A DNA stretch of 58,770 nucleotides from Diplocarpon mali (Eukaryota > Ascomycota > Leotiomycetes > Helotiales > Drepanopezizaceae): NCBI GenBank assembly GCA_024741835.1, contig JAENRP010000255.1:3231-62000 (forward strand), written 5' to 3'. A program made the translations under genes and the position numbers. Below the pieces are notes generated by a model that made no database searches, was not told the origin of the DNA, and was given only the letters and a program-made list of their open reading frames with translations. The stretch's first letter is position 1. Each line of letters begins with the position of its first letter. Positions 1 to 44,211 of this stretch are shown here, piece after piece.

Positions 1-115
1 TTTTATACGCTTTTCACCTACGGGCCGGGCCTAGGAGTTAGAAAACGAAACTAGCAAAACAGACAAACAAGCTATAGAGTTGCAAAAACAATTAAAAATA
101 ATACTAACCTAGATA

Positions 116-3100
116 TCAATTTTCCTTAATCCTTTTTAAGGGATAAGGAGAACTATTACCAGATAACACTCTCTTTGCCAAACGACCACTTCTTCTTATA
201 GCATCGCTATTAGTATCTGATAAAGCAGGTCTTAGTATAGCAGGAGCTTCTATACTCCTTGCGGATGCTAGTATAGTATAACGGCTTCTGCTAATAGGGA
301 GAGAGACTTATATAGTAGCGTTATCGTTATTATTATCGTTATTATCCTTAAGGGAATTATTAGTAATAGAGGAAGGGGAGGCAGGAGATTCTACAGACAC
401 TACTTCCTTAGCCTTGCCCTTTAACAGATCAAGTTGCAGGCCGGGCCTAAGAGTTATATTAGGTGTCTTTGCATAAGGCTTCTTAGTGCTATACTTCTTA
501 AGGAGTATCGTCTCATCAATTATATTATCAGCTTTGATATTATCATCTATATCTTTAGTCTTTATCCAAGACTTATCGCCATACAACTATAGCTCTAGTT
601 GTTAAACCAGCTTCCAGGTACTAGTAAAATCTTTAAAAAGTTCTTATTTGTACTTCTTTAAATATGCTATCAGCTAAGATACGTCTTTTGCGAACAAATC
701 CTTTATAGTTATTACTACTAATAGATCACTCTATAATCGTCTTCCTATAAGAGCGTCTAATAGTAGACCACCTTTTATCATACTAAGCGTTGCACGAAAC
801 TTAGCTAAGGATTCTCCGATAATACTCCATCTCGCTATGCTTGGTTTCTTTATATAGATAGAATCGATAATGAATTCTTCTAGGTCAGCGCTATTCTCAA
901 GTGATTCATTGCTAACAACTTCTATATAGTTGTTGCTAATAGCGAGAAAACCACCCTTTCCAGGTTCTCTATTAGAATCCAGGTCAACGAAGGTGCCTTG
1001 TCTTATAAACACTAAGAATAGAGTAGTCTCATTAGAGATATACTCCTTTAGAATTATTCTATCCTTAGTATTCAATTCTTTCTATTGAGCTGCGCTTTAT
1101 GCCAGATTCAACGAGATCTACTAAGAGTTCTTAAGGCGATAGGGTATAAGTGTAAATAACTTATAAGACTTTTCCTATATAGCAAATTCTCCAGTCGATT
1201 GTTTAGCTGCCGGAATCACGTAGTAGTCAATAGTTCTATTATTAGGTAGATTGACCCGCGAGCCGGGCCTAGGAGTCAATCTTACGAATCTTATATTAGC
1301 GTCAATCTTAATAGAAATAATTTGCAAATAGTAGTCAATGCCTATAAACTATATAAGCTTAAGATATGCCACTAGCTTATATAAAGAATTATAATAAGTC
1401 AATAGAGCACTAAGATACAGACTATAGTGCATCCTTAAGGTCTGCTATATTAAGCTGTAAGTCATATTATAAAGGAAGGCGGAAGGGGAGCTTAGCTTCT
1501 TATCTAAGGTCCGGAAATGGTATTAGTATATTTTTAGCTCCTCTTATACTAATATCAAAAATGAATTCTTTTTACAATTACCGTAACTATACGTACGTAT
1601 AGCACTTAGGAAAGCGCAGCTAAACAATTTAGGCATATTCAAAAAACCTTTGCTATAGAGTAATATTAGGTTATTACTAGTCAGTATAGCACTATACCAA
1701 GCGGGAGTCTAAGCGATATTATAGAATAATTTTAAAGCTTCGGGCTCTACCTTAAACTTAGCGAAACCTAATAATATATCTTTCTTAACCTGGCTCGCTA
1801 TTCTATTACCGGTAGCCATAATTGCATAATTCCCTAGGTGCAGTAAAAACAACTTTAAGTCAGGTGCAGTGCAAAATTTATATATATTAGAGGAAACTTG
1901 CTCGTTGGTTAAAGACACTGTTATCAGCCTATAATATTATATATATTATCGTTTATATAGAGTATAAAATTTTTCGAAACTGAAGTCCTTAAATATCCTT
2001 ATTATAAATTTGCTTAATTGTATCTTTATCTTTAGTATTACTGCAATCTTAAATCTATCGCCATATTGAAGTATTATCTTAATGTTAAGGGGAACTTTAT
2101 AGCACTCTATGGATATGATTGTCGTACTACTTTCTGGCTTTTCTTTAAGGATATAGTAGTCGCCCTTCGATTTCTTATACTTAATAAAGAAATGCATAAT
2201 ATTATCTATAGAAAATTCGTCTTATCGTAGCTTTATGATTTGTTTAACGGCTCTTGCCGTCGCTTCCTATACTAGTAAAACTTCTCCCTGACCTTCCTTT
2301 TTCAAACGCTTTATTATTGACTTATAGAATTTTAAAATAAATTTTTACAGGTCTTTGGAAAAGGTTTATATAATATCAGCTGTATCCTTCTTAGTATTAT
2401 TAAAAATTTCCATTATATTAGTAATAGGATTATTCTCTTCGTCTATCAGATTATCTTTAGAATCTATATTATTACGTATTCTGACCTATAGGCCGGGCTT
2501 ACGAGTCAACTTCTTTGCTACTAGTGTTCTAGGTGTTTAGGGCATCTCTAAGGATAGTAAATCAAACTCGTTTGAGTCTGATGATTAGTGATCGCAATAG
2601 TCAGCTATTTGAGTTCCAAGTGTTATAGGTACCTCTAGCTTAGGGATATCCTCCTTATATAGTACTTCTACCCGTAGGCCGGGCCTACGAGTCAAATTTT
2701 GCTTATTAGTTAAATCTTCCAAGGGTAGTAGCATTTTCTAAGCAGCGGGTATAACAAACTCCTATCTTTCTATCTTATTATCAAAGTAGTTTATAGTATA
2801 CTCAGCTAGATAGATTATCTTTTCCTTTATAATAAGTAAACTACATTATAACTATTGCAAACCAAGGGTATCTAGAACTATTTAATCTAGTAACGCAATA
2901 TTATCGTACTAAAAGGGGCTGTCCTTTATAGTCTAAATGGCAGAGTGGATAATAGTACTTAAGAAACCTATAAATTTTCTACCTCGCGTACTATTTCCCT
3001 GCAGCTTTTTTATACCCTTTTAGATAGTAAAATAATTCAATACCTATATAGCCTTTGCCACTAGTTGGTATATTTTAAAAATTTTACCAAGCCCTTGCAA

Positions 3101-3535
3101 GGTATTATTAATAGTAATGTCAGTTATAAAGTATGTCCGAAAAAGTGTACCATAGGTGCTACTTATAAACTGCAACAACCTTTTCATATACTTATTTTTC
3201 TTATCTCGATTCTTCCGAAATAGATCAACTGAATTGGCATACCCTTGATATTCCTATAGAAATTTTTCACAATCGATTCCCTTTATCTTAAGCTTATTCT
3301 CAAGAAAATCATCGAAGTCTAAAAATCCTTCTTTAACTGCAGAGATTCTATAGTTTAATACTTCAATAGATGAGTTTAGGAATACCTATTGTTCTATTTT
3401 ACCTAATGTTCTATAGGTGCTTACCATATCTTCTAATAATCTTAGTAACTTGCCCTCTTATAAAAAGCCACCCTCTAATATTAGCTTATTGCTAGTAGTA
3501 TTTATTGACTTGCTGCCTAAGGTAATAACTGATAT
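116..3535 (-). pseudogene. X1: accessory long ORF of element A, unknown family, RIP-inactivated
   Basis: One minus-strand frame of 1140 codons runs from 3535 to a TGA at 116-118, interrupted only by TAG/TAA codons. The start is now ATA (3533-3535); the A2 copy still has ATG at the matching site, so I take this as the start. I recognise no family. Visible: STYRTLGKIE (about 3400-3430), a conserved RGRKFIGFL block, VEPEALKLF, YSLYLSALL and LLVVITIKDLF in order; an Asn/Asp-rich stretch near the C-terminus (308-340); and a basic tail containing RRSGRLAKRV and LKRIKEN that looks like a nuclear localisation or nucleic-acid-binding tail (inference). There is no signal peptide or clear membrane segment. 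It is homologous along its length to X2 just upstream. Four palindromic repeats fall in the frame. Role unknown; it sits where some retroelements carry a third ORF. Confidence 0.7.
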
Positions 3536-4190
3536 ATTCTTCTTAGGTATGGCTTTCTTGTTTGAGCTTAGTGGTGCTATAATGAATTAGTCGGTAGGAG
3601 GGGTAGCTTTAAATAAAGAGATGATTATTTAAGAAAGATTAACAACATAGGAGGCCTATACTAGAAAAGATTGATAATAGAAAGACAATAGTAGTAGTGC
3701 TAGTATTATAGGTCTGGTAGGGTTATAGAGAAAGTAAAAAAAAGTAAAATCGTCGTACGGGGAGAGGCTTATTTATAGAATTTGGAATCGCGCTAGTGCA
3801 CAAAGGAAAAGTGGGTATAATAAGCTTAGAAGTGGGAACAAAAGTAGGGTATAACGCATACAAGGACCTACAATTAGTGAATGATAATTCTTCAAAGGTG
3901 AGGACGACATTTTAAAGGTAAGCGTTAGAAAGTTGCATACAAAGGGAATAATCAAAGAATAAATCATATAAAGAGTAAAGTAAATAAAGAATATATATAA
4001 AATGGAATAATAGGTTAAGAATAAAGAGGTGCAAGTATATAGAAAGTAGATAATCCTTAAAAAATTCAACTTCTAATTCGCAATCTCTCTAAATGGTTTT
4101 CAAGGGAAGGAGGTAGTAGACTTGATTCTCGAGGCTCGAGTCGACTCAATTGTCAGTTCTATTATCACTTCGGAATCTTCTTCTCTTGCG
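3536..4190 (-). other. Spacer between X2 and X1 with possible internal promoter
   Basis: About 650 bp with no convincing gene; the 98-codon open frame at 3773-4069 is Phe/Leu/Tyr-rich because the coding strand here is pyrimidine-rich. The same spacer, almost the same length, is kept in A2 (15922-16571). It contains a TATA-like run at 3991-4001, about 460 bp before the X1 start. A separate promoter or leader for X1 is possible but unproven. Confidence 0.4.
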
Positions 4191-7100
4191 TTAGTTCTCA
4201 TTTCTTAGCGATTTCTCAGCTTTAGGGACCTCTCTCAAAGGATCTTCTATTAATACTCCTAGATTTGGTAACTGAGGTTCATCCGAACTATCTCGTAGGC
4301 TTAAGCCAGCCGAGTCCAACCTCACTCGCAGGCCAGGCTCGCGAGTCAGTCTTAGCGTTTCTAAGCTTAAGGATAAAAACAGGGGATTAGTTCCCAAATC
4401 AGGGTCTAATACTATACTAGCGTCTCAGTTCGTCTCTTTTCCGAATTTTCTTATAATAATGCCTTTATTAATCAGTGCATTAGGCTCTTAGATAGCATTT
4501 ACTTTATCGCGTTATCCCTAAGACTTAAGTCTATAAAGAAGCGACTTAGTGTTTGTAACGTCTGTTTAGGCCTTAATAAGGGCGTTGAAGAGCTTCTGAT
4601 TATATTTTGCAAAGTGGATTTTCAATTTATCTTTATTAAGAAGAAACAACTCTTGTACTTTAATTATAACCAATAGATCTATTTAAGAGCATCGACTAAC
4701 AATGGCTTTAGAGAGGCTGCCGCAGTTCTCAAGATGAAAAGCTGCTTTAAAAGGTGCAGTAGTCCTGCTTATATTAATCTATCGAAGTACTAGAGGTTGC
4801 TTTAAAGCAGAGACTGAAAAGATAAGATCGGAGATTCGAGTCTTATTTTCCAAGGTATTCTTATTGCGTATAACTGTATAGTTATTACAAAAGGCTATAA
4901 AACCACTAGTCCTATAAGGATTGTCCAAAAGCATTTCAAGAAGGTGTCCTTATTTTATTATTACTATAATTGGATTGCTATTATTAGTAATAGGTCGCAA
5001 GATCTCCTTTTGCTTTAATTTTGCGGTTATTTGAGCTAGTTGAGATTTTGAACCGAGTGCCTAGGAAGTCTATCGACTTGTCTTCTTCGTAGATAGAGTG
5101 AGTTTCACATTCGACTAAGAGCTGACCCACCTATTAAGGCTTCCAGAAGCTGGCCCTTGTCCGATCGGTAGGATCTAATAATCCAAGACTTGCTTTTTAA
5201 TAAAATTGACTTGCGGGCCAGGACTGCGAGTGAAAATCGGAATCTCTTTATTAGTAGCACTTATATCTCTTTTTATTAAAACGACTTAATTATAAAGACT
5301 AAGGCCAATCAATTAAGAAGGTTTAAAGTAGGCCATAAGCTAATAGGTTCCTCTACTTCTTGCTATTATAGCTGAAAGGTAAAGTCTATAGTACATTCGA
5401 AGGACTTATTGAGTAAGACTGAATATCATATTATAGAGAAAATAAGAAAGTATAGAGATCGCGCTATCTATAGGGCAGAAGTGATAAAGATATATCTCTG
5501 CTTCTTATCTTATAATAGAGAGGAATATACTTATAAAAGCACTATTATTAGTAGTAAAATTGTCGGTTAGGAAGCGGCATCTAAAGGGCTTAGGCATCAC
5601 AATTGACCCTTCTTCCTCTATTCCCTCCTACTGTTTATTGCTTAATAATATCGATAAGAAGGAATTATTCTATTCAATCGGCTCTAACGCTTTTAAGGCT
5701 TCGGGATCAGCTCTGAATTTTATAATACCTAAAGATGCCTCTATTATCAATAGGTTAGATTTGCATATCCTTAAAGAGATAAAGAACTGATTATTAAGGT
5801 AGATTAGAAAAAGATCGATATCTTCTACTATATAAAGAAGTTCGAGGTATTTAATAGTTTTATTAATATCAAATCCTTTATAATTAAGACTATAGTAAAC
5901 CGAAAGAGAGCGAATATAAAGGTCGCAAAGTCTTCTCCCTTCGATTCCTATACTAAGGAGATACTGCCGAAAGCGAGTCTTTATTGTAAAAGACACTTAA
6001 ATGTTATATCATTCTCTAAGCTTAAGGTTGAGAATGACCGATTAAGGCACATTATTACAATTACAAATGTCCTAATCAATAGATTCCTCTTCGCATTCTC
6101 TTTCTTATAAGATAAAATAGTCTCGTTCGGCATCCGAGAGACTAGGTTCTTAACTTCTATAATTATTAAAGAATTGAATAATATCTGTAAGGGCGAACTC
6201 GTCTAGGATAAGCCATTGAATCTGTTTAATAGCTCTCCTAGTTATCTCTAAAGCAGTTAGAATAGGGTCTTCCCTTATATTATTATTTCTAAAATGGTTA
6301 TATATAGATATAAAGAAGTTAAGAACTAGCTCCTTTAAGTTGTTAAGGAAGGAGTCTAAGCGAGTGCGCAATCCTTTAGTTTTAAATTGCAAATCAGCTA
6401 AGGTAGCTATTAAACAATCCATCCTTTTTAAAGGTCGAGCTAAAATTAGTCGTTTAGCTAAAGGAGAGTCCCTTAAAGATTCCGAAAATTCTAAAGAGAC
6501 TGCGCTAAGCGTTCGAGCAGTCTATTCAACAGCGGTTTCTAGAATTATTTTAGCAAAAGGCAGGTTAGGTCCAATTCTAAAATTCTCGTTTCTAACTCTT
6601 AGTCTAAGACTGCAAGTCAAATCACATAGTTTAGCGCTTATCGAATCTTTAGGCTAAGAGGCGAATTTCAAGGCAAGCTTAACTACAAATAACCAATTCT
6701 CTTCTTTATTATTAAAGAAATCTCATTTAAACTCTAGCATAGGAGTCCAGTTTTCTTTTAAAATAAGCAAACTATAAGCAGAAGCGCAGAGCCCTAGCAT
6801 ATTAATAATAGTGCTATTAGGTAGGGTAATATCTACAGCCCATTTTAATCTTTTTATAGCTCTATTAGCTGCTATAAATATTGCATTAGATAGGCCTACA
6901 AATCTGCGACCGCGAATTCGATTGCCTCAGAATTTTGCTACTCCTTCTTAAATGATAAAGAAATTGAGAATTTAAATAGCTCTGGCTATAGGAGTATTTT
7001 CCTTAAGAATTTTTAATAACACTCGCCTTCTATTATTAGAATCAATATTTGTTAAGAAATGTAAATGAAACAAGAGTCCTCTCTTATTAGTAGCTAAATT

Positions 7101-7463
7101 ATCCAGTCGTTAAATAGATTCTTCCCTTTTATCTTAGTCCGTTCTGAAAGTATCGGCCAAGGTTATGTATTAATCTGCGTCGGCTAAGAATTCCTCTCTA
7201 GAGATTCCCTTTAGTCTTAATTCTTCGGTTAGAAAGTTGTTAAATTAGAGAATTCCAAGGGCCACCTAAGTTAAAAGGTTGCTAATAGTATTCGCGTAAG
7301 CTAAAAGGAGTTTTTATTACTCTATATCTCCTAAGGCTATATAGGTCGATTTAAAGCTCTCTAATAATGCAATGGCTCTATCGTCCTAAGAGAAGTTTGT
7401 AACTAGTGCTTATTCATCCCCTATCGCAGCAGATAAAACCATTTATGAGTTCTTTAGAGGCAT
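4191..7463 (-). pseudogene. X2: accessory long ORF of element A, paralogue of X1, RIP-inactivated
   Basis: A 1091-codon minus-strand frame starts at ATG 7463 and ends at TAA 4191-4193, broken only by TAG/TAA (RIP) stops. It aligns in order with X1: STYIALGDIE with STYRTLGKIE, RGRRFVGLS with RGRKFIGFL, ADPEALKAL with VEPEALKLF, YRLYLSAII with YSLYLSALL, and LLVIIKVQELF with LLVVITIKDLF. The two are therefore ancient tandem paralogues, diverged far more than the two element copies. Three palindromic repeats lie in frame (4324-4349, 5207-5234, 6594-6620), each at a position matched by one in X1. Some intact pieces remain open (4191-4397, 5670-5996, 6150-6422). No known domain was recognised. It lies directly downstream of pol on the same strand, so co-transcription with the retroelement is likely (inference). 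Confidence 0.7.
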
Positions 7464-7769
7464 ATTACTTATGAAAGATAGGGAGTATAAATAAGAGAGT
7501 TCAATAGGGTATAAGAATTAAAAGGGCATACAAGCTGCAATAGGTTTGCTATATATATATTAAGGAAATTGGACTTTTTATTTATTATTTAAGGAAAGTA
7601 ATAGGAATATTATAATTAAAGGCCAATATTAAAAATGTAAAATAAGTTAGAGTAGGCAAGAATTTAAAGTGATCTTAAAAGATCTATATCCTAAATAATA
7701 AAGGAGGCGACCTTGCCGAAAATGTAAAAATAAGAATTAGAGGAAGGTAAGACAATTAATAGGCTAGGA
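7464..7769 (-). other. Pol-X2 spacer
   Basis: About 300 bp of AT-rich sequence between the end of the pol-like frame and the X2 ATG. No domain, hairpin or promoter that I would defend. The pol frame may run a little further into it, because its true stop cannot be told from RIP stops. Confidence 0.35.
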
Positions 7770-10700
7770 AATCGTTTGGTATTCCCGCTTGCGTTCTTCG
7801 GATATTTTAGAAATAATGACTTAGGGTCGCAATTGGTTAGGTATTTTAATATTCTTCACTTGCAGGACCGGCTTATAGGTTAAGTTGGAAAAATCTTAGT
7901 CTTCGTCCAAGGGTTCAAAATTGCTTATATCGCCGTCGGTTCTTACAAAAGATTCAGAGGTAGTATCAATTTCAGATTCGTCTTCTAAGGGGAATAAGGT
8001 CTAGTCGCATTAGTAAAAGCGCTTCAGTCAGTTGGCTACAAAGGTTCCTTTAATATCGACTCCATCAAGTTCTTAAAGAGAATAGTATCCTTTTTCTTTC
8101 TACTCAGATTTAACTTTAAATAGGCCAAGCTATTAATAGTCAAGTTTAGTATCTGCTAATATATTAATGCTTCTTATAACATCGTAAACTAGGATAAGAT
8201 TATCTTTTTAAATAGGATGCGTTTTAAGTACTTTAGAAGTAGCCTATGCTTCTTTAGCTTTTTCCTTATATTGTTTCTTTCGCAGGATGATTTCCTCTAT
8301 ATCTATATCTCAAAGCTTAAGTTGTCGGCATTTTATTGCTAGCAAATCGGAACGATTCTAAATTTGACTATAGTCGAACAATCTCCAAATAGGCTATCAG
8401 GATTTAAAAGGGAGCTATGCCTCTCTACTATAGATAAGGAAAAATAGTATAACTCCAGTTGGTTTATAGATTATCGTTTAATAAGCAAAGAGTATTCTAT
8501 AAAAGTATTTTATCCAATTTTTAAATCCTCTACGGGTAACTTTAGATAGCCTATCAAGAATATTGCGATATCCTTACTCTACCACTCTATTAGCTTTCGA
8601 GTTGTACGCTGAGATTTAAACCTATTTAATACTATATTTTCGCGAAAAAGCTTTAACTACTCCTTTATTTTCAGGGCCTCTATCAACAGTTAGTCTGCTA
8701 AAAAGTCTATAGCAATAGATCATATCTTCTTAAAGGAACTTCGCAATAGATTCAAAGTTAGCAGATCTTAAAGGTCGTCCTTTAGGCCATCCTAATAGGT
8801 CTTCCTTTGCTAGAATAAAATATATAATCCTATTTTCAATTATTAGTACTTATATAATATCAAGACTGACTTTATAAAAAAGGCCTAATAGCTAGGTTAG
8901 GAATAGGAGATTCTCTTTATAACTAGGTTTTCGTTTTTAATAAGGGACGCAACTTTTCACAAAGGCTTTACAGTCCTTAAAAGAACCTTTCTAAAAGAAT
9001 TTCCTCGAGAGTCGGTAGTAGGTAGACTCAGCTCTTTAGTAGCCAGTTTTCTTATAAATATCCTAGATAGCCTTAGCCCTTAGTTCTTTATCGTCTAAGC
9101 AAAGTCGTATAGAGAATAAGTTATTACTCCTTTTAAACAATCGTCTTTCTTATATTAGATAAATCAGAGCTTTAGCTTTGAATTTCTAAAAATCTTTAAG
9201 AGCAACTGTCTTTAGTCGTTTAAGCGTGACTAAAAATTTTACGATTTCTTCAAAGTCACCTAAGTAGTTAAGTGATAAAATTCTCTTACTCGACTCGCGG
9301 GCCGGGCTCGCGAGTCAAGTCCCTTTAAGGCAATATATTAACAGATAACCAACTTCGTTCTCTACCCACTTATTAATATCTGTTTTATCTTCTTTAATCA
9401 AATCAGAGGGGTAGGGACGAGTTCTTCTTAAAAGGCCGTCGGCGGCGGTATTTTTCATTCCTAGAATATATTTGACTTTAAAGTCTATTAGTCTTATTTA
9501 AGCAATCTATTTCATTAGCAAGGCTCCTAATAGGTCGCTTGCAACTCTATTCAATTGTTCTACTAGCACTTTAGTATCAGTTTCAAGGATAAAGTAAGTG
9601 CTATAAAGGTCGCTTCTTATCTTTTTCATCGCCTTTAGGGCGCTTTTGCATTCCCATTTAGTAGCATTATACTTTGTCTCCGCTGGATTCCAAAGACCAC
9701 TTTCAAAGCAAGTTAGATGTCTTTTCTACTAGCTGTCAGTTTATTAAAGGACGGCACCCCATCCGATTAAGCTTGCGTCAACTATTAGTATAATTGGCCC
9801 AGCGTCGGCTCTATAGTCTATTTTAATCAGATATAGCGCTTTAAGCAACGCTTACTTCAGTTGTCTTATAGCCTCTATTTAGGGTTCCTCCTACTGAAAC
9901 TCAGCCCCTTTCTAAAACAAGGAGTAAATAGGTACTGCCTTTTTAGCAAAATCCTTAATCTAAATGCAATAGTATACCATAACTCTAATAAACGCGCGAG
10001 CTTCTACCATATCGTCACACCTCTTCCATTCGTCGATTTTAAGTACTTTAGCCCTCTAAGGACTTCGGCCATTGGAATCCGTAATAAAACTAACAATTTC
10101 CATTGATAAGAGATAGTATTATAACTTCGGACCAACTGTTGCTCCTACCCTTTTGAATTGTATAAGTACCTAGTCCAGGTTCTAAATGTGTTCTATTATA
10201 AATTATTATATACTAAAGAGAACTTCTTTATAGTTGTAGAATGATCTTAATCCTTTTACTCCTATATCGTCTATATAAGAGAGCGCAATATTAGGTATAC
10301 AATCTACTAGTATCTTATAGATTACTTAAATAAATTGAGCGATCGAATTTATAGCCCCTTAAGGTAATCTTATCATCCGAAGTAGCCTAAGAGGGGTTTG
10401 AATTACTATTATATCTCTTAATTTAACATTAAGAATGAATTGGTCGTATCTAAAGAAGAAGTTAATAAGAGAGCTGCAGGTTAATCCTGCGAATTCATTC
10501 GAGAACTTATCCATATTCAAAGGGATATTAGCATCCTTAACAGTTACTCGGTTTATCTCTACTACTGCTATTATTAGTCTATAAGTTCCCTTCTCTTTCT
10601 TAGCAACTAGGAACCATTTGTTCTTATAAGGGCTATTACAGAACTTAAAAACACCTTGCTTCAGCCTATCCTTTAACATTTCAATTACCTTTTCTTAAAG

Positions 10701-11490
10701 AGCTTTAGGGACTCCGAATGTTTTCTCTTACTAGGCTTCGTAAGGTATTATCTTAATCTTAATATAAGGCGTGACCTCTTCTCGAATCTAGCCAAGTTCC
10801 GTCTAATTAAAAGCTAAGGCGTCCTCTTAATTTGTTAAGGTTTTATAGAGTAGTTCGCGTTCTTATTCTATTAAGTCATCTTCAATTTTCAGTATGCTAA
10901 AACGTTCTTTTATTAGCTGATATCCGATAGGTTTATTAGAAAATCTGCCTATAATAAACTTATCGAATTTGCCACTTAGCTTCAGAGGTCGAAGCTTCTC
11001 GTCTTATTCAAACCAATCATCCAATCCTTTAGGCTTTAAGCTATTAGAGATTCTCTAATCTACCGGTCGTACTTTATCAGCCTTACTTTTATATATAGTT
11101 CGAATATTAGCTAGTACTATGCTTCTCTGCTTTTTTCCTTTTTTATCAAATCTTATAAAACGGTCCGAATCTTCCTTTTTAAAAACAAATAAAAGATTTT
11201 CTAAGTTATCAATTTAAAGTGCGTAGATAGAAATGTCGTTAGTAATTTTATTATTTTTCACTCGCAGGTCCAGCCTATAAGTGGTTTTTAGGTTTTTCAA
11301 AATGATTAATAAATTATCGAAATTTATAAAACGAACTCTCTTCTCTACCTTATTTTTCTTTTTTCTTAATTATTAAGCTGATAAAACGCCAATTGCACCA
11401 TTTTTCAAAATTCCAGATTTGACTCCCAGTCTAAGACTGCGAATCAAATCGCTATTGTTTAAAATTGGCAAACTCACCTTTCTTTCACTA
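7770..11490 (-). pseudogene. pol: A1 pol: RT, RNase H, integrase (Ty3/Gypsy), RIP-inactivated
   Basis: Minus-strand frame offset -1 from the gag-protease frame. RT: the open piece 10359-10679 reads LKQGVFKFCNSPYKN, then KYRLI-like and LRDIIVIQTPLRLLRM motifs typical of fungal Gypsy RT. RNase H with WNPAETKYNATKWEC lies near 9600-9690, followed by AADGLLRRTRPYP (about 9430). The integrase is near 9250-8500 and keeps its acidic residues: YKVSLDII, LTVDRGPENKG and NRVVE. A C-terminal GYYSLQELDG-type segment with a stop at the Q codon (about 8090) matches the end of these fungal polyproteins. Four palindromic repeats fall inside (7856, 9292, 11257, 11420). Many TAG/TAA stops. The exact C-terminus is uncertain. 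Family identification rests on motif recall, not a search. Confidence 0.88.
9292..9316. repeat. Best-preserved copy of the element-A palindromic repeat
   Basis: A 25-nt near-perfect palindrome: GACTCGCG, then G-GCC-G-GGC-T, then CGCGAGTC. The outer eight bases pair perfectly, GCC/GGC pair inside, and the one non-Watson-Crick position is a G/T wobble around a single-base centre. In this copy the pol frame reads LASPARES, a different frame from most other copies. Confidence 0.85.
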
Positions 11491-11499
11491 TAACTCCTT

Positions 11500-14400
11500 G
11501 CTAAGTGCCTTCCTTCACTAGCATTAAGCCTAGCCCTTATACTAGCTAATCGTTTCCTAAAACCTCGTTTTAGAATTCGGCTATATCTCCTGCAATAACC
11601 ATTTGTCCTTTTAAAGATCGATCTATATTCTAAAGACTAGCTTTTATAAGACTATCTCTAAGATAGTTAAATATTAGCTGAGATTCTAAAATGAAGGGCA
11701 TTCCTAAAAGAATATCGTTCGAAGAATTCTCTATTATTAGAAAGTCAATATAATTAACGATTCCTCCGACTCTAACCTTTACGTTTTTCACCTATCTATT
11801 AAAATTGTGTTTCAATCCAGAGACAGTCGAATAAACAAGGAGTCGATCGCTAACGATTATCAATCGAGCCATTTCTGCCACCTTTTTAATTATCGCATTA
11901 ACTTTTGAACTACAATCGATCAGAGCCTTTGCTTTAACTGATTCTTCTATTAAATAAATAATAATAGGGCTTTTTATTACAACTGCTAAACAATTTCGAT
12001 TGATATTCTAAGATATTAAAGCTATTGCTATAATATTGTAATACCTCTAGGTTCCTTTGTCTTCTGCAATCTAGAGACATTTGATTAAGGCTAAGTGCTT
12101 CTCAGAGTTCTTCTGCGTTACAATTTCCATTTCCTTATTATCATTTAAATCTTTAAAGGCAACTAGGATATGCTTTCCTAGCACTTTATTAAAGCGTCCA
12201 ATCAAACCAAATAGGTCTTTAAATATAAGGTTAATTTGCTAAGCTATGATATTCTCTATAGCTTTCTCTATTGCAGTTGAATTAGCGTATTTGTCGACGA
12301 ATTTCTCCTATTTTAATATCTATCTCTTTCGCTTAGGGTCAAGGGTCTGCGCAATAACTTCGACTTCTTAATCTTCGAGCTTAAAGCCATTTTCGTCTAT
12401 TATATCTCTAATTAATTCGTCTGCCATATCGGCTTTATCCTCGTCTACTGCAGTTCTAGATTATTAAGTATCTTTTAGCGTTTGGACTCTATATTAAGAT
12501 TCCTAAGTTGCACGCATTGATTTCTAGACTTTAGCTAGTTTAATCAGTATTAAGGGAGTAGTAGATCTAAAAGGGCGTCAAGTATTCTAAGGGTTTCTAA
12601 ATACAGAAGCAGTATTAATATCAGCAGATACGTTATTATTAACCCACCCTAAGACAGAGATGCCTTTAACTTCCGTAGCTATTTAGTCAGAAGCCAGGTC
12701 CTTAAGAACTCCCTTAGGTAGGTTGCTAGTTGGACCTATATATATATAAGTTGGAATTTTAGCGTTTATATCTATAATACGCTATCGTTTGACCAAATTC
12801 TCGTCCCATTTCGTACTATATATCATCGTTCGAACAGTCTATAACTATAAGCGATTCTAGTGCTTTTTAATAGGGATAGCTTCTAGCCTAGGATCTTTAA
12901 TGCAAAGCATCCTATACTTATTAATATGTATAACCCTAGTATTAATAAAACGAAGGAAAAGAGGGCAATCGTTGCAATACTTATATAAAGCGCAGTTAGG
13001 TTTTTCGTTATTATAAAAGTTGCAGGTTAGTTGTCTTCTATTGCCGTTTCCTTAGTACCCTATAGTATTAATATTAGCAGAGTGCTAGTTAGGATCAATT
13101 CCTCCTTCTTTAGCCAGCTATTGCGTTCTTATATTAGCTGGTTGTTCCGAATGATAAGAAGCAGGAGTCTGGTAATAGGAACCACTAAGTTAGCTTATAG
13201 TAGCCGAGTTTTACCTATTACTAAATTGCGGAATATGCTGTTTTTCCTATAAGAGATTATTAATCTTAGTTTCTAAGCTTTAGATTTAGAGTTTTGCAAA
13301 TTAGGTCTTAAGTTCCTCAATTCTAAGGTTAGATCTTACTCCTAGGTCAGGACCGCGAGTGAAAGGTATAACCATAGGGTTCTTCTTTGCCTCCTCTATG
13401 ACTTCCAAAGCCTTCGAGTGTTCTTAGACCAGGCTCTTAAGGTCTTTAGTATAAGAGGGAGTAGGGGCTTTTTCCTACTCTATAGTATTAATAGTTCTCT
13501 TACTAAGATCTGATTTTAAAGCAAAGGCCGAGAATTCCTTAAATAAGGCGAAGGTTATAGGGTCTTGCTTATTAATCCTAAAATGCTTGATAATCTTATT
13601 TCGAAAGCTAGTAGGTAATCTAAGTAAGAAAAGGCGACCTCTTTCAACTTTGCTAAGTATTTTCTAGCTGATTAAGGTGTTTAACACACAAGTAAAAGTC
13701 CGATAGTAGTTCTTAAGTTCCTTAGGAGTTTAAGTGACTAGAACAAATTCCTTTAAGAAAGCTAGAGTATTGCGAATCTGCTATCTGTTAAATTCTCAGA
13801 ATTTAGACTTAAGAGCCTTAATAAGGAGTTCTTATGAATTATGCGTCTTCTATTTAAAGAGGGATTTGATAATATCTTTGCTTATATAATTATAGTAGCA
13901 AGGGAGCTGAGAAATCATATCCGCTTATAAAATACCAAAATTGTAATAAGTTTCCTTATATTGCTTAAGGAAATCAGTGATATTAGCTCTTATAAAGTAA
14001 GGAGTACTAAGGGAACTAAGGAGGGGAAAGTGACTGGTAATAGCCTTAAATGCAGCTATTATCATTTTATATTAACCGTCCGGATTAATAGAATCCATAG
14101 GGGGCAAATAGGAAGCTTTGATATCGCGTGATTGGTTGCTAAAAGGAGTACTTCGAAATTCAAAAGGGCTTAAAGAACATTCAAAATCCGAGTCGATCTC
14201 AAAGTGACTAGGACGAGTTTAAAAAGATTCAGATAAAGGGTTAGTAAAAAGTTTAAAATTGTTATTATTTTTAGTGTTTTCTAGTATCGATATTAAAAAA
14301 GTAGGTAGCAGTCCTAAGTTATTTAAGGACATCTTTTTATCCTTCCACTTATAGGCCAGGCCTAGGAGTAGAATTCCGGATTCCGCTAAAAGTTTAATCC

Positions 14401-14755
14401 GAGTTTGCTAAAAGATTTTAAATAGGTACTAAATAGCTAATAGGAGCGTTGCGACTAATCGCAATAAGATAAGGTTTACCTAATCTAGGACCAATTTCTA
14501 AGATAAGGTTTATATCCAAGATTCTTCTTAGCCTCTAGGCCAATTCCTATTAGTCTTCAGAATAAAGGGGTCTCCGGAGACGATTCTAGGGCAATTTTTA
14601 GAGTTTTATTAAGCTAAGGCGGCTGAATTATCAGATTCGGATTTCTAAGGATTCTAAAGAGGCACTTCCAGTTGAAGTTTACGCTTAGTATTACTCGAGT
14701 ACTCGAAACTACCGCTATTTGAGATTGCTATTATAGGGTCCGCCAAACTTTTCAT
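11500..14755 (-). pseudogene. gag: A1 gag-protease, RIP-inactivated
   Basis: One minus-strand frame of about 1085 codons from ATG 14755 to a TAG at 11500-11502 (itself possibly a RIP stop). The N-terminal two thirds is gag-like, with a cysteine cluster CNFYNNEKPNCALYKYCNDC near 13030-12970 that may be a diverged zinc-binding motif. Near the C-terminus is a retropepsin-type protease: ALIDCSSKVNAI with the catalytic Asp codon at 11917-11915 (the usual Gly after DC reads Ser, a G-to-A change) and later ILLGMPF near 11710. Two palindromic repeats lie inside, at 13336 (reads FTRGPDLGVRSN) and 14345. Protease fused to gag, with RT in the -1 frame, differs from B and E, where protease is on the pol side. 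Confidence 0.8.
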
Positions 14756-15036
14756 ACTAAGAAGCCGAAAATTCCAAAAATCTCAGAGTTAAGGAAGAAA
14801 ATAGGGGTTTTCAAAGCAGAGCCGAAAAGGGAAAATCTAAGGTTATTAATAGTTGCTAAACGAAAATCGACAGTTCCAAGTAACTAGGCGATTAAAGATA
14901 AGGGTTTTGGAGTTGATTAAAATGCTATAAGTGTTTCGAAGACGTATTTCAAAGGCCGGTCTCTTGTCTGCGAACTAAGAGATCGATAAGGTTGTATAAG
15001 GACGGAAATCTCAAGAAATCGGTCCCTGCGTAGGTC
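14756..15036 (-). other. A1 5' leader between LTR and gag
   Basis: About 280 bp following the 5' LTR on the minus strand; a primer-binding site is expected in its first 20 nt (15036-15017). I could not match it to a tRNA 3' end. Only a 7-nt complement (GCGTAGG) to it occurs in the LTR, too short to call self-priming. Confidence 0.4.
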
Positions 15037-15276
15037 ACTAATATAAAACTGAGGGGAGACAATACAAGAATAGGCCTAAGGGAAGACCTAAAAACAAGAG
15101 GAGGAAGCACTATAAGCAGGCTCTCTTAGACAAGATATTAGGAATAAGTCCCAAGTATAGGGTATATTTAGTACTATGGCGATACGCGCTGTCTCTATAT
15201 ACAGAAGATGGCCCTTTTATCTACCTGCCGTCCTACGCCGATCATATGATATATATCACGAGACCTATCCATCTCA
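15037..15276 (-). repeat. A1 5' LTR (240 bp)
   Basis: Matches A2's 3' LTR (20378-20617) as reverse complement over its whole length. On the minus strand it starts TGAGATGGATAGG and ends near TTTTATATTAGT. The next bases, 15277-15281 (GGTCT), are the expected 5-bp target duplication; its partner should lie beyond the left edge. The outer boundary is clear because X2 sequence of A2 begins immediately. The inner boundary is uncertain by a few bases. Confidence 0.75.
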
Positions 15277-15921
15277 GGTCTCCATATTATCTTTTCAGTC
15301 TCTGCTTTAAAGCAACCTCTAGTACTTTAATAGATTAATATAAGTAGGACTACTACACCTTTCAAGGTAGCTTTTCATCTTAAGAACTGCAGCAGCCTCT
15401 CTAAAGCTATTATTAGTCGACGCTCTTAAATAGATCTATCGGTTATAATCGAAGTATAAGAGTTATTTCTTTTTAATAAAGACGAATTGAAAATCCACTT
15501 TGCAAAATATAATCAAAAGCTCTTTAATACCCTTATTAAGGCCTAGACGAATATTATAAATACTAAGTCGCTTCTTTATAAACTTAAGTCTTAAGGATAA
15601 TGCGATAAAGTAAATGCTATCTAAGAGCCTAATGTACTAATTGATAAAGGCATTATTATAAGAAAATTCGGAAAAGAGACAAACCGAGATGCTAGTATAG
15701 TATTAGACCCTGATTTAAGAACCAATCCCCTGTTTTTACCCTTAAGTTTAGAAACGCTAAGACTAACTTGCGAGCCTAGCCTACAAGTAAGGTTAGACTC
15801 AGCTAGCTTAAGCCTATAAGAAGGTTCAAATGAACTTCAGTTACCAAATCTAAGGGTATTAATAGAAGATCCTTTAAAAGAGGTCCTTAAAGCTAAGAAA
15901 TCGCTAAGAAATAAGAACTAA
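15277..15921 (+). pseudogene. X2 3' fragment in A2
   Basis: Reverse-complement match to A1 4191-about 4835; ends at TAA 15919-15921, the same stop as A1 X2. It is truncated at its 5' side by insertion of A1. It includes the mirrored palindromic repeat (15770-15791) and the AEKSLRNEN-like C-terminus, here with AKKSLRNKN. Confidence 0.75.
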
Positions 15922-16571
15922 TATAAAAGAAGAAGACTCTAAAGTAATAATAGAACTGATAATTAAGTCGACTTAATCTAAAGAATCATAGTCTATTCCC
16001 CCCTTTGAAAACTATTTAAAGAAATTGCAAATTAAATATTAAATTTTTTTAAGATTATCTACTTTTTATATACCTATACCTCTTTATTCTCTATTTATTA
16101 TTCTATTCTATATATATTCTTTACTCTACTTCATTCTTTATATAATTTACCCCTTGATTATTTCCTTTATATGCAACTTTCTAACGCTTACCTTTAAAAT
16201 ATTATCCTTACCTTTGAAGAATTATCATTTACCAATTATAGGTCCTTATATATATCATACCCTACTTTTATTCCTACTTCTAAGCTTATTATACCTACTT
16301 TTCCTTTATACACTAGCGCGATTCTAAATTCTATAAATAAGCCTCTTCTTGCATAACGATTTTACTTTTTTTACTTTCTCTATAACCCTACTAGACCTAT
16401 AATACCAGTACTACTACTATTATCTTTCTATTATTAATCTTTTCTAGTATAGGCCTCTTATATTATTAATCTTTCTTAAATAATCATCTTTTTATTTAAA
16501 GCTACCCCTTTGCCAACTAATTCATTATAGTACTATTAAGCTTAAATAAGAAAGCCATACTTAAGAAGAAT
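15922..16571 (+). other. X2-X1 spacer in A2
   Basis: 650-bp counterpart of 3536-4190, pyrimidine-rich on this strand with several TATA-like runs. No gene seen. Confidence 0.4.
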
Positions 16572-19500
16572 ATGTCAGTTATTGCCTTAGGCAGCAAGTT
16601 AATAAATACCACTAGTAATAAGCTAATATTAGAGGGTGGCTTTTTATAAGAGGGCAAGTTATTAAGATCATTAGAAGATATAGTAAGCACTTATAAAACA
16701 TTAGGTAAAATAGAATAATAGGTATTCTTAAACTTATCTATTAAAGTGTTAAACTATAGAATCTCTACAGTTAAAGAAGGATTTTTAGGCTTTAATGATT
16801 TTCTTAAGAATAAGCTTAAGATAAAGGGAATCTATTATGAAAAATTCCTATAAGAATATTAGAGGTATGCTAATTCAATCGATCTATTTTAAAAGAATCG
16901 AGATAAGAAAAATGAGTATATGAAAAGGTTATTGCAGTTTACAAGTAGCACCTATAGTACACTTTTTTAAATATACTTTATAACTAATATTACCGCTAAT
17001 AATACCCTGCGGGGGCTTGGCAAAATTTTTAAAATATACTAACTAGTGGCAAAGGCTATATAGGTATTGAATTATTTCACTATCTAAGAGGGTATGAAAA
17101 AGCTATAGGGAAATAGTACGTAAAGTAGAAAATTTGTAGGTTTCTCGAGTACTATTGTCCACTCTGCTATTTAGACTATAAAGGATAGCCCCTCTTAGTA
17201 CAATAATATTATATTACTAGACTAAATAGTTCTAGATACCCTTGGTTTATAATAGTTATAATATAGTTTACTTATTATAAAGGAAAAGATAATCTATCTG
17301 GCTAAGTATATTATAAACTACTTTGATAATAAGATAGAAAGATAGGAGTTTGTTATACCTACCGCTTAGAAAATGCTACTACTTTTAAAAGATTCAACTA
17401 ATAAGCAAAATTTGACTTATAGGCCTAGCCTATAGGTAGAAGTACTATATAAGGAGGATATCCCTAAGCTAGAGGTGCCTATAATACCTAGAACTTAAAT
17501 AGCTGACTATCGCAATCACTAATTATTAAACTCAGACGAGTTTGATTCACTATCCTTAAAGATGCTTCAAACACTTAAAATACTAATAGTAAAGAAGTTG
17601 ACTTATAAGCCTAGCCTATAGGTTAGAATATATAATAATATAGACTCTAAAGATGATCTAACAGACGAAGAGAATAACCCTATTACTAATATAATAGAAA
17701 TTTTTAATAATACTAAAAAGGATATAGCCGATATTATATAAACCTTTTCTAAAGACCTATAAAAATTTGTTTTGAAATTCTATAAGTCAATAATAAAGCG
17801 TTTAAAAAAGGAAGGTCGAGGAGAAGTTTTACTAGCATAAGAAGCGATAGCAAGAGCTATTAAATAAATTATAAAGCTATAATAAGACGAATTTTCTATA
17901 GATAATATTATGCATTTCTTTATTAAGTATAAGAAATCGAAAGGCGACTACTATATCCTTAAAGAAAAGCTAGAAAATAGTATAATAATCATATCTATAG
18001 AATGCTATAAAGTTCCCCTTAATATTAAGATAATACTTTAATATAGCGATAGATTTAAGATTGCAATAATACTAAAGATAAAGATACAATTAAGCAAATT
18101 TATAATAGGGATATTCGAAGACTTCAGTTTCGAAAAATTTTATACTTTATATAAACGATAATATATATAATATTATAAGCTAATAATAGTATCTCTAACT
18201 AATAAGCAAGTTTCCTTTAATATATATAAATTTTGCACTACACTTGACTTAAAGTTGTTTTTACTATACCTAAGGAATTATACAATTATAGCTACTAGCA
18301 ATAGAATAGCAAGCTAGGTTAAGAAAGATATATTATTAAGTTTTGCTAAGTTTAAGGTAGAGCCTAAAGCTTTGAAATTATTCTATAATATCGCTTGGAC
18401 TCCCGCCTAATATAGTACTATACTAACTAGTGATAACCTAATATTACTCTATAGTAAAGGTTTTTTAAATATGCCTAAATTATTCAGCTACGCTTTCCTA
18501 AGTACTATATATATATATAATTATAGTAATCGTAGAAAGAATTCATTTTTAACATTAGTATAAGAGGAGCTAGAAATGTACCAATACTATTTCCGGACCT
18601 TAGATAAGAAGCTAAGCCCCCCCTCCGCCTTCCTCTATAATATAACTCATAGCTTAATATAGCAGACCTTAAGGATATACTATAGTCTATATCTTAGTGC
18701 TCTATTAACTTATTATAATTCTTTATATAAGCTAGTAGTATATCCTAAGCTTATATAGTTTATAAGTATTAACTACTATTTGCAAATTATTTCTATTAAG
18801 ATTAATGCTAATATAAGATTCGTAAGATTAACTCCTAGGCCCAGCTTATAAGTCAATCCACTCGATAATAGAACTATTGACTACTACGTGATTCTAGCAG
18901 CTAAACAATCGACCAGAGAATTTACTATATAGGAAAAGTCTTATAAGTTATCTATACTTATACCCTATCGCCTTAAGAACTCTTAATAGATCTTATTAAA
19001 TCTGGCATAGAGCGCAGCTTAATAGAAAGAATTAAACACTAAGGATAGAATAATTCTAAAGGAGTATATCTCTAATAAGACTACTCCATTCTCGGTATTT
19101 ATAAGACAAGGCACCTTTATTAACCTGGATTCTAATAGAGAACTTAAAAAGGGTAGTTTTCTTACTATTAGTAATAACTATATAGAAGTTATTAGCAATA
19201 AATCACTTAAGAATAGCGCTAACCTAAAAGAATTCATTATCGATTCCATCTATATAAAGAAACTAAGCATAGTAAGATAGAGTGTTATTAGAGAAGCCTT
19301 AGCTAAGTTTTATATAACGCTTAATATAATAAAAGGTAGTCTACTATTAGACGCTCTTATAAGAAGACGATTATAAAATGATTTATTAATAGTAATAATT
19401 ATAAAGGATTTATTTGCAAAAGACGTATCTCAGCTAATAGCATATCTAAAGAAGTACAAATAAGAACTTTTTAAAGATTTTACTAATACTTAAAAGCTAG

Positions 19501-19991
19501 TTTAATAACTAAAGCTATAGTTATATAGCAATAAGTCTTAAATAAAGACTAAGGATATAGATGATAATATCAAAGCTAATAATATAATTAATAAGATAAT
19601 ACTCCTTAAGAAGTATAGCACTAAAAAGCCTTATGCAAAGACACCTAATATAACTCCTAAGCCTAGCTTGCAACTTGATCTATCAAAGGGTAAGGCTAAG
19701 GAAGTAGTATTTATAGAATCTCCTGCCTCTCCCTCTTCTATTACCAACAATTCCCTTAAAGATAATAATAATAATAATAATAATAACGCTACTATATAAG
19801 TCTCTTTTCCTATCGATAGAAGCCATTATACTATACTAGCATTTATAAAGAGTATAAAAGCTCCTGCTATACTAAGACCTACCTCATTAGATACTAATAA
19901 CAATGCTATAAGAAGAAGTAGTCGTTTGGCAAAGAGAGTATTATCTAATAATAGTTCTCCTTATCCTTTAAAGAGAACTAAGGAAAACTAA
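16572..19991 (+). pseudogene. X1 copy in A2, RIP-inactivated
   Basis: 3420 bp from ATG (16572-16574, MSVIALGSK) to TAA 19989-19991, exactly the length of the A1 X1 copy, so the two copies show no net indel. Differences are nearly all C/T and G/A transitions. It preserves the ATG that A1 has lost and so fixes the start. The Asn/Asp repeat (about 19760-19790) and four in-frame palindromic repeats are present but more eroded. TAG/TAA stops are frequent. Function unknown, as for the A1 copy. Confidence 0.75.
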
Positions 19992-20180: not shown

Positions 20181-20377
20181 AAAAAAAACTCTCCTTTTTT
20201 TTCTTTTACCTTTAATAATAATATAGCCCTAGTTTAGGCCTTTTAATATATTAGTTTTCTCGCACTTAGGGTTTGCTAGTAATTGATATACTATTACCTT
20301 AACCTATATTATTTTATATTCTTTACTAATAGTAGTAGGGGCTACTACTTTTATTATTTAGGATATATATAAAGACT
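20181..20377 (+). other. A2 3' UTR remainder
   Basis: AT-rich, homopolymer-rich sequence between the gap and the 3' LTR. No gene. The polypurine tract expected before the LTR is not clear; GTAGTAGGGGC near 20330 is the nearest purine-rich run. Confidence 0.4.
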
Positions 20378-20617
20378 TAAGATAGATAGGTCTTATGATA
20401 TATATCATATGATCGACGCAAGACAGTAGAAGGATAAAAGGGCTATCTTCTATATATAAAGATAGCGCGTATTACTATAGTACTGAATATACCCTATACT
20501 TAGGACTTATTCCTAATATCTTATCTAAGAGAGCCCGCTTATAGTGCTTCCTCCTTTTGTTTTTGGGTCTTCCCTTAGGCCTATTCTTGTGTTGTCTCCC
20601 CTCTGTTTTATATTAGT
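20378..20617 (+). repeat. A2 3' LTR (240 bp)
   Basis: Starts TAAGATAGATAGG (G-to-A changed from TGAGATGG in A1) and ends near TTTTATATTAGT. It matches A1's 5' LTR in opposite orientation. The right flank is the G2 reverse transcriptase codons for LPFSLTN on the minus strand. Confidence 0.75.
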
Positions 20618-32925: not shown

Positions 32926-33996
32926 CATATAACATATGCATAGCATTCGAAAAGCCTTAGGCAGGTCCTTAGGATTGCATTCAAGCACTATTTAAGTTAA
33001 TAATATATATATTAAAGGGGATCGGCTAACAATTAAAGCACTTACTAATAATAATAATATTAGTGATAAATTAATATAAGATAAGATCTACTAAAGGGTT
33101 AATCAACTCAAAAGCAAGAGGGAGAAATCGACCTACTTATAAGAAGTAGGAATTAGAGTTGAGAGATCAAGGGAAAAGGGAAGCTTGATATATATGCCTT
33201 CTTAAAGGCCCCTCTTTTCCCTTTTACAAATCATTATAATTCATAGCTATAGTGGATTACAACTCTAGATAACTCTTTAATAAAGAGTCTCAAACCTACT
33301 AAAACGCAACCGGACTATAATTACACTACTATAAGGCTTAAATAAAGACTTTAGATTACTTCTATCACTTAAATACCTTTCCTTTCCCTCTTTACTATTT
33401 GCCTTTATCTTTGCTATTCTACTTTCTATATACTGTCCTTACTACCTATTACACCTGCCTTTGCTATTAAGCTATTTGTCTTTGCTATTTTATTCTTTAT
33501 TACTATTTGATTATTTGCTACCAATCTGCCTCCTTTATACACCTATTCTACGTACTTCCTTATACAAGTTGAAAAGGTCTTTTTAAAAGAAAGTACTGCC
33601 AGTATTAGTACGCAGATTCTTATATAAGAGGCAATCTGCCCTTATTCCTAGGGTTATCCTATACAGCTGTACCATATGCGATATAAGGGGTTTCATATAT
33701 ATTTCAAACGGCTATTTAGCCAGAAGACCTTGGAAGGATATCTATATGCGGCTAAAAGGGACTATAGGAGGGAGGATATTCATAGGTATAAAAGTACTAT
33801 CTCGGTTATATAGAGATAGACAGACATTATAATAGATTCTTTTTAACAATAAGTACTCAACTATATTCACGTGAATATCGATTACCGGTATAGAACCTAT
33901 AATATTACATCTTTATATAATCTAAGTAATATTCTTTCATAAAATTAATTTTTTTACATAATCCACTTTTTTGTATATTTCCTTAATTGTACTTAT
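32926..33996. other. AT-rich gene-free region, possible LTR-like remnant
   Basis: No gene. Notable are a hairpin-capable pair AAGGGAAAAGGG / CTCTTTTCCCTT (33170-33235), repeated TTTGCTATT words (33405-33500), and a promoter-like stretch with GGTATAAAAG (33805) followed by ATTCACGTGAAT (about 33877), which could be the end of a Copia-type LTR. No partner copy or target duplication was found, so it is left unassigned. Confidence 0.35.
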
Positions 33997-35363
33997 ATGT
34001 CATCACCTGATGTAATTGAAAACTATTAATCCTTAATCTAATTTTCGTATTCGACAGCCTATCAGATTTATACGATTTGATTAGCGTATATTAAGACTAG
34101 CTTTTTGTAAACAAGTCGACGGGCGATATCCTCCTTAATTGCTGTACGAATTGTATAAAGACCGATATCCTATTAAAGGATCGAAGGAATATCAACCAGT
34201 TTACGGCCTCGATAATAGTATTAAGGGGTTAGGCGACTTATTAAAGCGTACTGCACTTCACGTGGAGTAAGTTTCAACTAAAGGGTGATTTGATGAAGTC
34301 TAACTGCCGTTAAAGTTAAGGGTTTGATAGCGTAATCGTTCGTTGCAAAGGTCTATCTTATCAGGGTCTTTAGCATAGGTATACTTAACAAGGATTCTAT
34401 ATTGAAAGTCTTGATTTCTAGCCTGAAAAGCAGTGAGATAATATGAATTCATCATTAGGTAACACCCTTCTAACAGTTCCCTTATGATAGAAATCTTGAG
34501 AATAGCGCATAGGCTGCGGATGCACATTATTTCGGGCATATACTAACTAAATAAGTCGACATATTGACAAGCTATTTGGTATGACTGACACTTGGCTTAT
34601 AGCCAACGACTTTGGCGTCTTCGGTCAACGTGCTTCGGACGTACGTAGATCGGAAAAAGGGATCATTACCAGAATTACCACCAAGACACCTAGAGTATAG
34701 AAGAGCGATGATGCGTTCGGTTGCGCTTCTCAACGTCGGCATGTCTATTACATGGACATAGACCAACCGAAAAAATTACTTACCCCTAGCAATCAGAGCT
34801 CAAAGATTCCAGCCTACGGTATAAAGTGACAAGCCAGACTATCGTTTTTATGACCTCGGACTATACGATGTTTTCCGCGCCAAGGACTAGAGCAACGACT
34901 AATAATTAGGATACTCGTACCTGAGTCGCGGCAGATGGGCCACTCACGGGAGCAACTTCTGGTAAGAACGATGCTACCCTTTACCCTCCCCCCCCCAGTT
35001 TTTCCTACACGATATTGCGCAACCAACCCTCCTCTGCCATCACTGAAAGTTGAATATTTATATCAGGGGAGGGGATGATGGTGCTTGGTTGATACTCTTA
35101 TATCTGAAACTTAATCAGACCTAATATACTTCCCTTCATCGGCCACTAAGCGAACATCGTATTGGATTATTTGCAAGAGGAGTTCAAGGGACGTTTGCAA
35201 GGATGTACTCTGTGCGGTGTCTATGTGGCCTACGACGGAGTACATAAGATCTCCTACTCCCCCCCTACGTTTCCTTTCGTCACTCATATTTTCCATCCAG
35301 TTCATACACAGCAAGTCTTCTACAAGAACTAAAGCCATCACTTCCAATCCAACGACGGGCAAT
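33997..35363. other. Less-mutated region upstream of the secreted-peptide gene
   Basis: Base composition is visibly more balanced than the elements around it. Several 60-100 codon open frames on both strands (for example minus 34300-34539) show no recognisable domain. A CCTACCCC-free C9 run occurs near 34990. The last 80 bp before the ATG are pyrimidine/adenine-mixed and suitable as a 5' UTR. No other gene can be supported. Confidence 0.4.
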
Positions 35364-35607
35364 ATGCAAATCTCCACCGTCTTCACGTTCATGATCGCTG
35401 CCTTTGCCACCTCGGCCTACGCTACGCGGGTAAGACCATCCCTCCCTCCACTTCTCTGGAAGAATTCCATGTCATGTAGAGTGTACTAATACATAATAGG
35501 TTCATTGCGACTGCTATAACAACCAGGGGCGTTGCTTGTATACTACTTGCGATTCCGACACCATTACGAACTGTCAGCAATGCTGCGGAGGCAATGGAGA
35601 GTGCTAG
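35364..35607 (+). CDS. Small secreted cysteine-rich protein (57 aa, one intron)
   Basis: Exon 1 is 35364-35429 (22 codons) and exon 2 is 35500-35607, separated by a 70-bp intron with GTAAGA donor (35430), TACTAAT branch site (35484-35490) and TAG acceptor (35497-35499); reading frame is kept across the junction. Exon 1 encodes a signal peptide (MQISTVFTFMIAAFATSAYA, likely cleavage after AYA). The mature part is about 37 residues with eight cysteines: CDC, RC, TC, NC, QQCC and a terminal C before TAG, enough for four disulfides. No RIP-type stops. Size, signal and Cys density fit a fungal effector-like or defensive peptide; target unknown. It sits between heavily RIP-mutated elements, a common setting for such genes. 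An expressed product is inferred, not shown. Confidence 0.72.
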
Positions 35608-43905: not shown

Positions 43906-44211
43906 TATCACAGTACGGTTATATCATAGTCGCAACAGAACTGTTAGAGCAGGTGCAATGGAGATAGTAGTGCAACTAGAGGCGAAACAGACTAGTGCAA
44001 TAGATACGCCGCACCTTTACTATACCTTTCTTTTAATAGATAGAATATGACTTATTAGTAGAAATCGACTTCTAGGAGTCGTAGGCTAAGGAGAGCATAT
44101 TAAGAGGAAGGCTTCCTACTTTATATATACTCCTTAGCTTTAAATTCTATACGATTTAGCAGCTTTGATCTTAATGACTTTATCGACTTATGCCTTACTT
44201 CTGCTATTATA
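43906..44211 (+). repeat. E 5' LTR (306 bp)
   Basis: Starts TATCACAGTACGG and ends CTGCTATTATA; partner 51701-52006 keeps the unmutated end GCCGTCACA. Contains a TATA-like TTATATATA (44121-44129) and a segment complementary to the primer site. Confidence 0.92.

Follow-up and report, generated by a model that had tools for sequence, protein, structure and literature searches.

Two very long open reading frames (ORFs), X2 and X1, follow the pol gene of a long terminal repeat (LTR) retrotransposon of the Ty3/Gypsy type, designated here as A1, in a 58,770-nt stretch of Diplocarpon mali DNA (the window, in whose positions coordinates are given unless a contig label, C with a number, is used). The question raised by this locus is whether these ORFs are genuine parts of the element or sequences nested in it, and what their products may do. 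Results of our analysis leave hardly any doubt that A1 represents a Gypsy variant of about 15.75 kb in which X2 and X1 come after pol and before the 3' LTR; the gene order, the common strand, the fixed spacing, the LTRs, the target duplications and the paralogy of X1 and X2 were all observed directly. The explanation of the whole that we find best, namely a many-copy element encoding a pair of nuclear accessory proteins, is held by us with about even confidence, and the nuclear accessory role itself, guessed from the character of the sequences, is a tentative proposal.

A1 is riddled with mutations and lies on the minus strand. The placement of its domains and of X2 and X1 agrees with the order and single strand proposed earlier without database searches (the sequence-only reading):

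15042..15286, minus strand: 5' LTR, 245 bp, its ends defined by analogy with three copies that have target duplications
10901..14398, minus strand: gag-protease frame, with an aspartic-protease-like part at about 11690-11935
9426..10649, minus strand: reverse transcriptase and RNase H (phmmer match to Ty3 reverse transcriptase 4ol8, E 5.4e-16; PF17917 and PF17919 above cut-off)
7860..9092, minus strand: integrase, with an H2C2 zinc-binding domain at 8922-9092 (PF17921, E 2.1e-7, above cut-off)
4149..7463, minus strand: X2, 1105 codons, gap-free against protein P0005 of Diplocarpon coronariae, 73% identity
119..3580, minus strand: X1, 1157 codons, gap-free against protein P0001 of D. coronariae, 65% identity

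The reverse transcriptase, which is related to that of Ty3, and RNase H precede the integrase. The lower limit of the latter is approximate; its core and the end of pol were read by eye in a damaged frame. The protease part is weak (PF13975, E 1.3e-4; its 22.9 bits fall short of the curated cut-off, 28.2), and a Pfam search of the damaged frames of two copies gave no chromodomain at the C-terminus of integrase. A conserved stretch behind the 5' LTR, where a transfer RNA primer-binding site would be expected but to which no transfer RNA was assigned, was matched 77 times in forward and 60 times in reverse orientation (at most one mismatch, sister copies included). The 3' LTR of A1 is hidden, the 3230 bases to the left of the window being all N. 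The great length of both ORFs was recognized by the sequence-only reading, but its 1140 codons for X1 and 1091 for X2 become 1157 and 1105 when P0001 and P0005 are used for comparison.

The genome searched for further copies comprises 49.4 Mb in 676 contigs; the counts given here are lower bounds from the matches listed, and pairs were made by strand and distance. Scored places number at least 39 for X1 (625 first-look candidates), at least 46 for X2 (614) and at least 73 for the end of pol (386), and at least 41 LTR matches were listed, from 40 scored of 723 candidates. As many as 38 of the 39 scored X1 matches extend to residue 1173 or further of the 1182-codon query, and all 42 of 42 scored X2 matches start at residue 1, 2 or 4 and end at 1105. 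Among the matches listed, at least 24 pol-X2 pairs (20 of them spaced 9-12 bp) and at least 21 X2-X1 pairs (20 spaced 834-841 bp and one 17696 bp) were formed, A1 being included in both sets, together with at least four X1-LTR pairs (254-293 bp) and at least 14 LTR-pol pairs (12 of them 5833-5847 bp). Opposite-strand controls for the pol-X2, X2-X1 and X1-LTR pairings yielded 0, 0 and 0 pairs. At C253:35694-39224, an X1 match has an open frame of 3664 residues vs. about 1150-1240 in others, and at C168:35627-36091 two opposite-strand LTR matches overlap by 13 bases.

Independent insertions, the check that had been proposed for the place of X1 and X2, were found in three LTR-bounded copies, in each of which X2 and X1 stand ahead of the 3' LTR and a 4-bp target duplication is present (three of three examined):

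C185: LTR-bounded, 15760 bp, LTR 245 bp, target duplication TTAT, X2 and X1 by genome search
C390: LTR-bounded, 15739 bp, LTR 245 bp, target duplication CTAT, X2 and X1 by genome search
C175: LTR-bounded, 15753 bp, LTR 245 bp, target duplication CTAT, X2 by genome search

In the case of C175, X1 was matched by tblastn at residues 5-468, followed by 2211 bases of N. The LTRs of each of these copies, whose ends were defined as TG...CA before repeat-induced point mutation (RIP), share 88.9-94.3% identity, part of the difference being due to RIP. Because of these LTR-bounded copies and the constant X2-X1 spacing, we consider X1 and X2 integral to the element and not nested in it.

The dinucleotide make-up of A1 is that of RIP (TA/AT ratio 1.26-1.37 in 3-kb blocks). 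The X1 query stretch contains 41 stops (1 TGA, 21 TAG, 19 TAA) and X2 contains 42 (4 TGA, 14 TAG, 24 TAA), which fits RIP. Comparison of the X1 of A1 with ten other X1 copies gave 318-397 transitions and 0-11 transversions; since transitions so vastly exceed transversions, the copies were probably nearly identical at the time of their spread, and RIP would account for nearly all later change. A weaker RIP signature (TA/AT 1.13) than in the remaining window was seen at 33001-36000.

X1 and X2 are related along their length, as first supposed: the six-frame self-comparison of window positions 1-21500 (composition correction off) revealed a single long paralogous match inside A1, between minus-strand frames, at 29.4% identity across 978 columns (E 8e-84). 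The relatives found comprise five proteins, four similar to X1 and one to X2, all of D. coronariae, an apple pathogen (PMC11527701). P0001 (X1) and P0005 (X2) are of full length, and their locus tags are consecutive; internal stretches are missing from P0003 and P0004, and P0002 has a different C-terminus, which may be an annotation effect. P0001 and P0005 agree best in the N-terminal domain (43% identity), less well in the middle (37%) and the C-terminal domain (32%), and least in the linker and tail (21-24%). Basic clusters are present at the C-terminal end of four of the five relatives (P0001, P0003, P0004 and P0005), and in X1 a strongly acidic stretch lies ahead of this cluster. The existence of such full-length proteins makes X1 and X2 open to direct study.

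The earlier impression that X1 and X2 resemble nothing recognized was borne out by profile searches, in which neither had a Pfam match above cut-off (best E 0.024) and NCBIfam gave no match; PHROGs gave a single match, of P0005 (E 0.036). Among PDB chains, at E up to 10, there was no match for the profile used or for X2 alone, and for X1 alone two weak ones, to cyclic GMP-AMP synthase (0.29) and to an ABC transporter (2.3). Fold models, of mean predicted local distance difference test (pLDDT) scores 31 and 44, are too poor to use. Among the open-licence papers listed, no title or abstract start names the element, X1/X2 or a palindrome of the kind described below, and the repeat passages of PMC3484023, PMC5628827 and PMC11527701 give repeat totals and classes.

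The neighbour of A1 on the plus strand, A2, is a second copy:

15286..15963, plus strand: C-terminal residues 880-1105 of X2, severed from the rest by the A1 insertion (tblastn of P0005, 65% identity)
16539..19988, plus strand: X1 (tblastn of P0001, 57% identity)
20362..20617, plus strand: 3' LTR, by extent of DNA match

A1 must have jumped into A2, because the X2 of A2 resumes beside the 5' LTR of A1 at residue 880, on the opposite strand. As had been noticed before, X1 of A2 lies near the LTR shared with A1 (87.9% match), with an 89-base gap of N from 20092 between them; the LTR length of 240 bp then given is replaced by 245 bp. Elsewhere in the window, a direct repeat of about 300 bp (43906-44204 and 51701-51999, 90% identical, 7.8 kb apart) is perhaps the LTR pair of another element.

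A further feature is a GC-rich, odd palindrome of 25 bp, in its cleanest form GACTCGCGGGCC-N-GGCCCGCGAGTC, which is scattered in the element and in other repeats. Its 23-base core has 505 matches per strand in the genome with up to three mismatches, the listed places being identical on both strands, and the same pattern read backwards has none. A looser pattern gave 934 and 941 matches (control 0 and 0), and eight loci fetched with it are all in copies of the element, two being A1. A transition-tolerant scan of the window found 28 matches, 18 of them in A1, vs. five in the reversed window; because the latter itself yields five, the weakest matches are doubtful. One of the 18 overlaps a neighbour, and 15 were tabulated, among them:

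9292..9316, no strand: best-kept palindrome, 11 of 12 arm pairs
Starts at 15, 431, 1253, 2483, 2669, 4323, 5208, 7857, 11259 and 14346: other palindromes of A1
Starts at 6594, 11421 and 13337: weaker palindromes of A1

Complementary arm pairs number 6-11 of 12 at the 15 sites vs. a mean of 3.3 of 12 in random 25-mers of A1. The peptide T-R-G-P-G-P-R-V, or a decayed form of it, appears in the ORF frame at 11 of 12 sites (the reverse transcriptase match and two outside ORFs omitted), or at 11 of 15 if the reverse transcriptase match and two weak out-of-frame matches of the gag region are added; the palindrome between RNase H and integrase is out of this frame. X1 and X2 have two palindrome sites in common at matching alignment columns. 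Twelve further places picked by hand comprise one in X2, four in one other repeat family, six that share sequence with the 3' region or LTR of a sister copy described below, and one, L035, that matched none of these. In L035 (C21:8300-9300), two palindromes are separated by about 55 bp, the RIP signature is slight, and neither the window nor any other palindrome locus fetched by place gave a match. The palindromes (window 15-14370; loci L034-L045) occur throughout the element and other repeats of an AT-rich stretch, and those inside ORFs are mostly in a single reading frame.

Since it also occurs outside ORFs and in other repeats, the palindrome is a genomic unit and not a protein motif alone. 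It may insert, or it may be kept for a peptide; if it inserts, the entry of tiny repeats into coding sequence could be counted here. Mitochondrial GC clusters and Rickettsia palindromic elements are the comparators for a nuclear mini-element of this kind. It is possible, though we do not favour it, that X1/X2 form an undescribed family of accessory factors and that, in addition, a nuclear palindromic mini-element of 25 bp, likewise undescribed, spreads into the retroelements of this genome and comes to lie in frame between protein domains.

In the nuclear accessory reading, one ancestral gene would have been duplicated in tandem inside the element, giving X2 and X1, which would be made as proteins apart from pol. 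They could enter the nucleus by means of their basic C-terminal tails and, like some retroelement accessory proteins, may work as a pair on element RNA, complementary DNA or host chromatin, in export, integration or relief of silencing; copies nearly identical during their spread would have suffered RIP damage afterwards. Several observations weigh against this reading. The nuclear role is proposed from the basic clusters, and no known domain was found that would point to an activity. Pol and X2 are in one frame; the stops in the 152 codons between them, nine in A1 and 13 in C185, speak for separate proteins, yet they are seen in RIP-damaged copies, and a pol-X2 fusion is still conceivable. 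A gag-only sister has spread without X1/X2 of its own. Unpaired X1, X2 and pol places also occur among the matches listed; these neither support nor refute the reading.

The sister just mentioned (C94:7050-9949; L039 and L046) is of the kind that the sequence-only reading had named as contrary evidence, an LTR-bounded copy without X1/X2. It is 2.9 kb long, retains a gag stretch only (58% identity), has no match to pol, X2 or X1, and has a CTAA target duplication, read by eye; its two LTRs match each other at 93.6% identity and that of A1 at 73% to about 74%. Three further fetched pieces (L041, L043 and L045) share its 3' part. One such copy was thus found, but because pol is also missing and the LTR has diverged from that of A1, it reads as a non-autonomous deletion derivative rather than a form into which X1/X2 moved later. 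Together with the orphan nature of their sequences, this sister might suggest that A1 contains X1 and X2 as nested, independent transposons or as host genes that it captured, which we regard as very improbable: their position and spacing are alike in at least 20 copies, the locus tags in the D. coronariae record are consecutive, and duplications of their own, once proposed as a test of nesting, did not appear, since any direct or inverted words common to the flanks of X2, X1 and the pair (150 bp; 56 bp to the right of X1) do not exceed the length expected by chance. An envelope-like nature of X1 or X2, suggested by their place between pol and the 3' LTR, has next to no chance, in line with the earlier opinion; by hydropathy, the five D. 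coronariae relatives have no membrane-like segment (top 19-residue Kyte-Doolittle mean 1.26), and their N-termini are hydrophilic, as judged without a signal-peptide program.

The same absence of membrane-like segments in large proteins, and the occurrence of paralogues of similar size side by side at fixed spacing, would suit X1 and X2 as additional structural proteins that assemble together within the particle or on it. Quadriviruses, with two related coat proteins, are a model for it. We find such a pair unlikely, as solved chains gave nothing beyond the two weak X1 matches, and a shell protein would not be expected to have long acidic linkers and basic tails; the quality of the fold models is too low for judging a coat fold. 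Somewhat less probable still is that the element protease cuts X1/X2, like gag-pol, at the T-R-G-P-G-P-R-V stretches into separate domain products. Such stretches do occur in X1, X2 and gag, between protease and reverse transcriptase and near the end of pol, and of the two at matching columns of X1 and X2 one is next to the poorly conserved linker; however, the unit is palindromic in DNA, is also found outside ORFs and in other repeats, and is out of frame between RNase H and integrase.

The element shares with Ty3/Gypsy elements the LTRs, short target duplications, the order of gag, protease, reverse transcriptase, RNase H and integrase, and a reverse transcriptase-RNase H part alignable to Ty3 reverse transcriptase, but differs in its length of about 15.75 kb and in two extra sense ORFs of more than 1100 codons. 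The membrane-anchored glycoprotein behind pol of env-bearing (errantivirus-like) Gypsy elements was not seen here by hydropathy. Further likenesses draw on parts of the papers cited. Plant Retand elements also have a long region with extra coding sequence between pol and the 3' LTR, for which a regulatory role and possible DNA binding were suggested; their ORFs are antisense and mostly with TRP28, whereas X1 and X2 are sense, paralogous and without a known domain (PMC11963269). Antisense ORFs of the Retand type were not encountered behind pol, X1 and X2 being sense to gag-pol; other antisense ORFs were not searched for. Cer1 of Caenorhabditis elegans is likewise an LTR retrotransposon encoding an accessory nuclear protein, CERV, a role that for X1/X2 is inferred, but CERV is one protein from a spliced messenger RNA, and the likeness is by description only (PMC10309623). 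Boty/BcGypsy1 of Botrytis is a fungal Gypsy element with an additional gene, brtn, which, in a comparison again by description only, is antisense according to a cited title (PMC8365987). Burro of planarians is a very large Gypsy-like element with extra coding capacity, but it is longer (internal region up to 25 kb) and its extra domains are recognizable (PMC6431247). The extra genes of LTR retrotransposons described in these parts of the literature are env-like, antisense or single captured ORFs (PMC8365987, PMC11963269, PMC6431247); X1 and X2 are large sense paralogues in tandem, and the retention of about 6.8 kb of added coding sequence despite heavy RIP suggests that they do a job which pays for this length.

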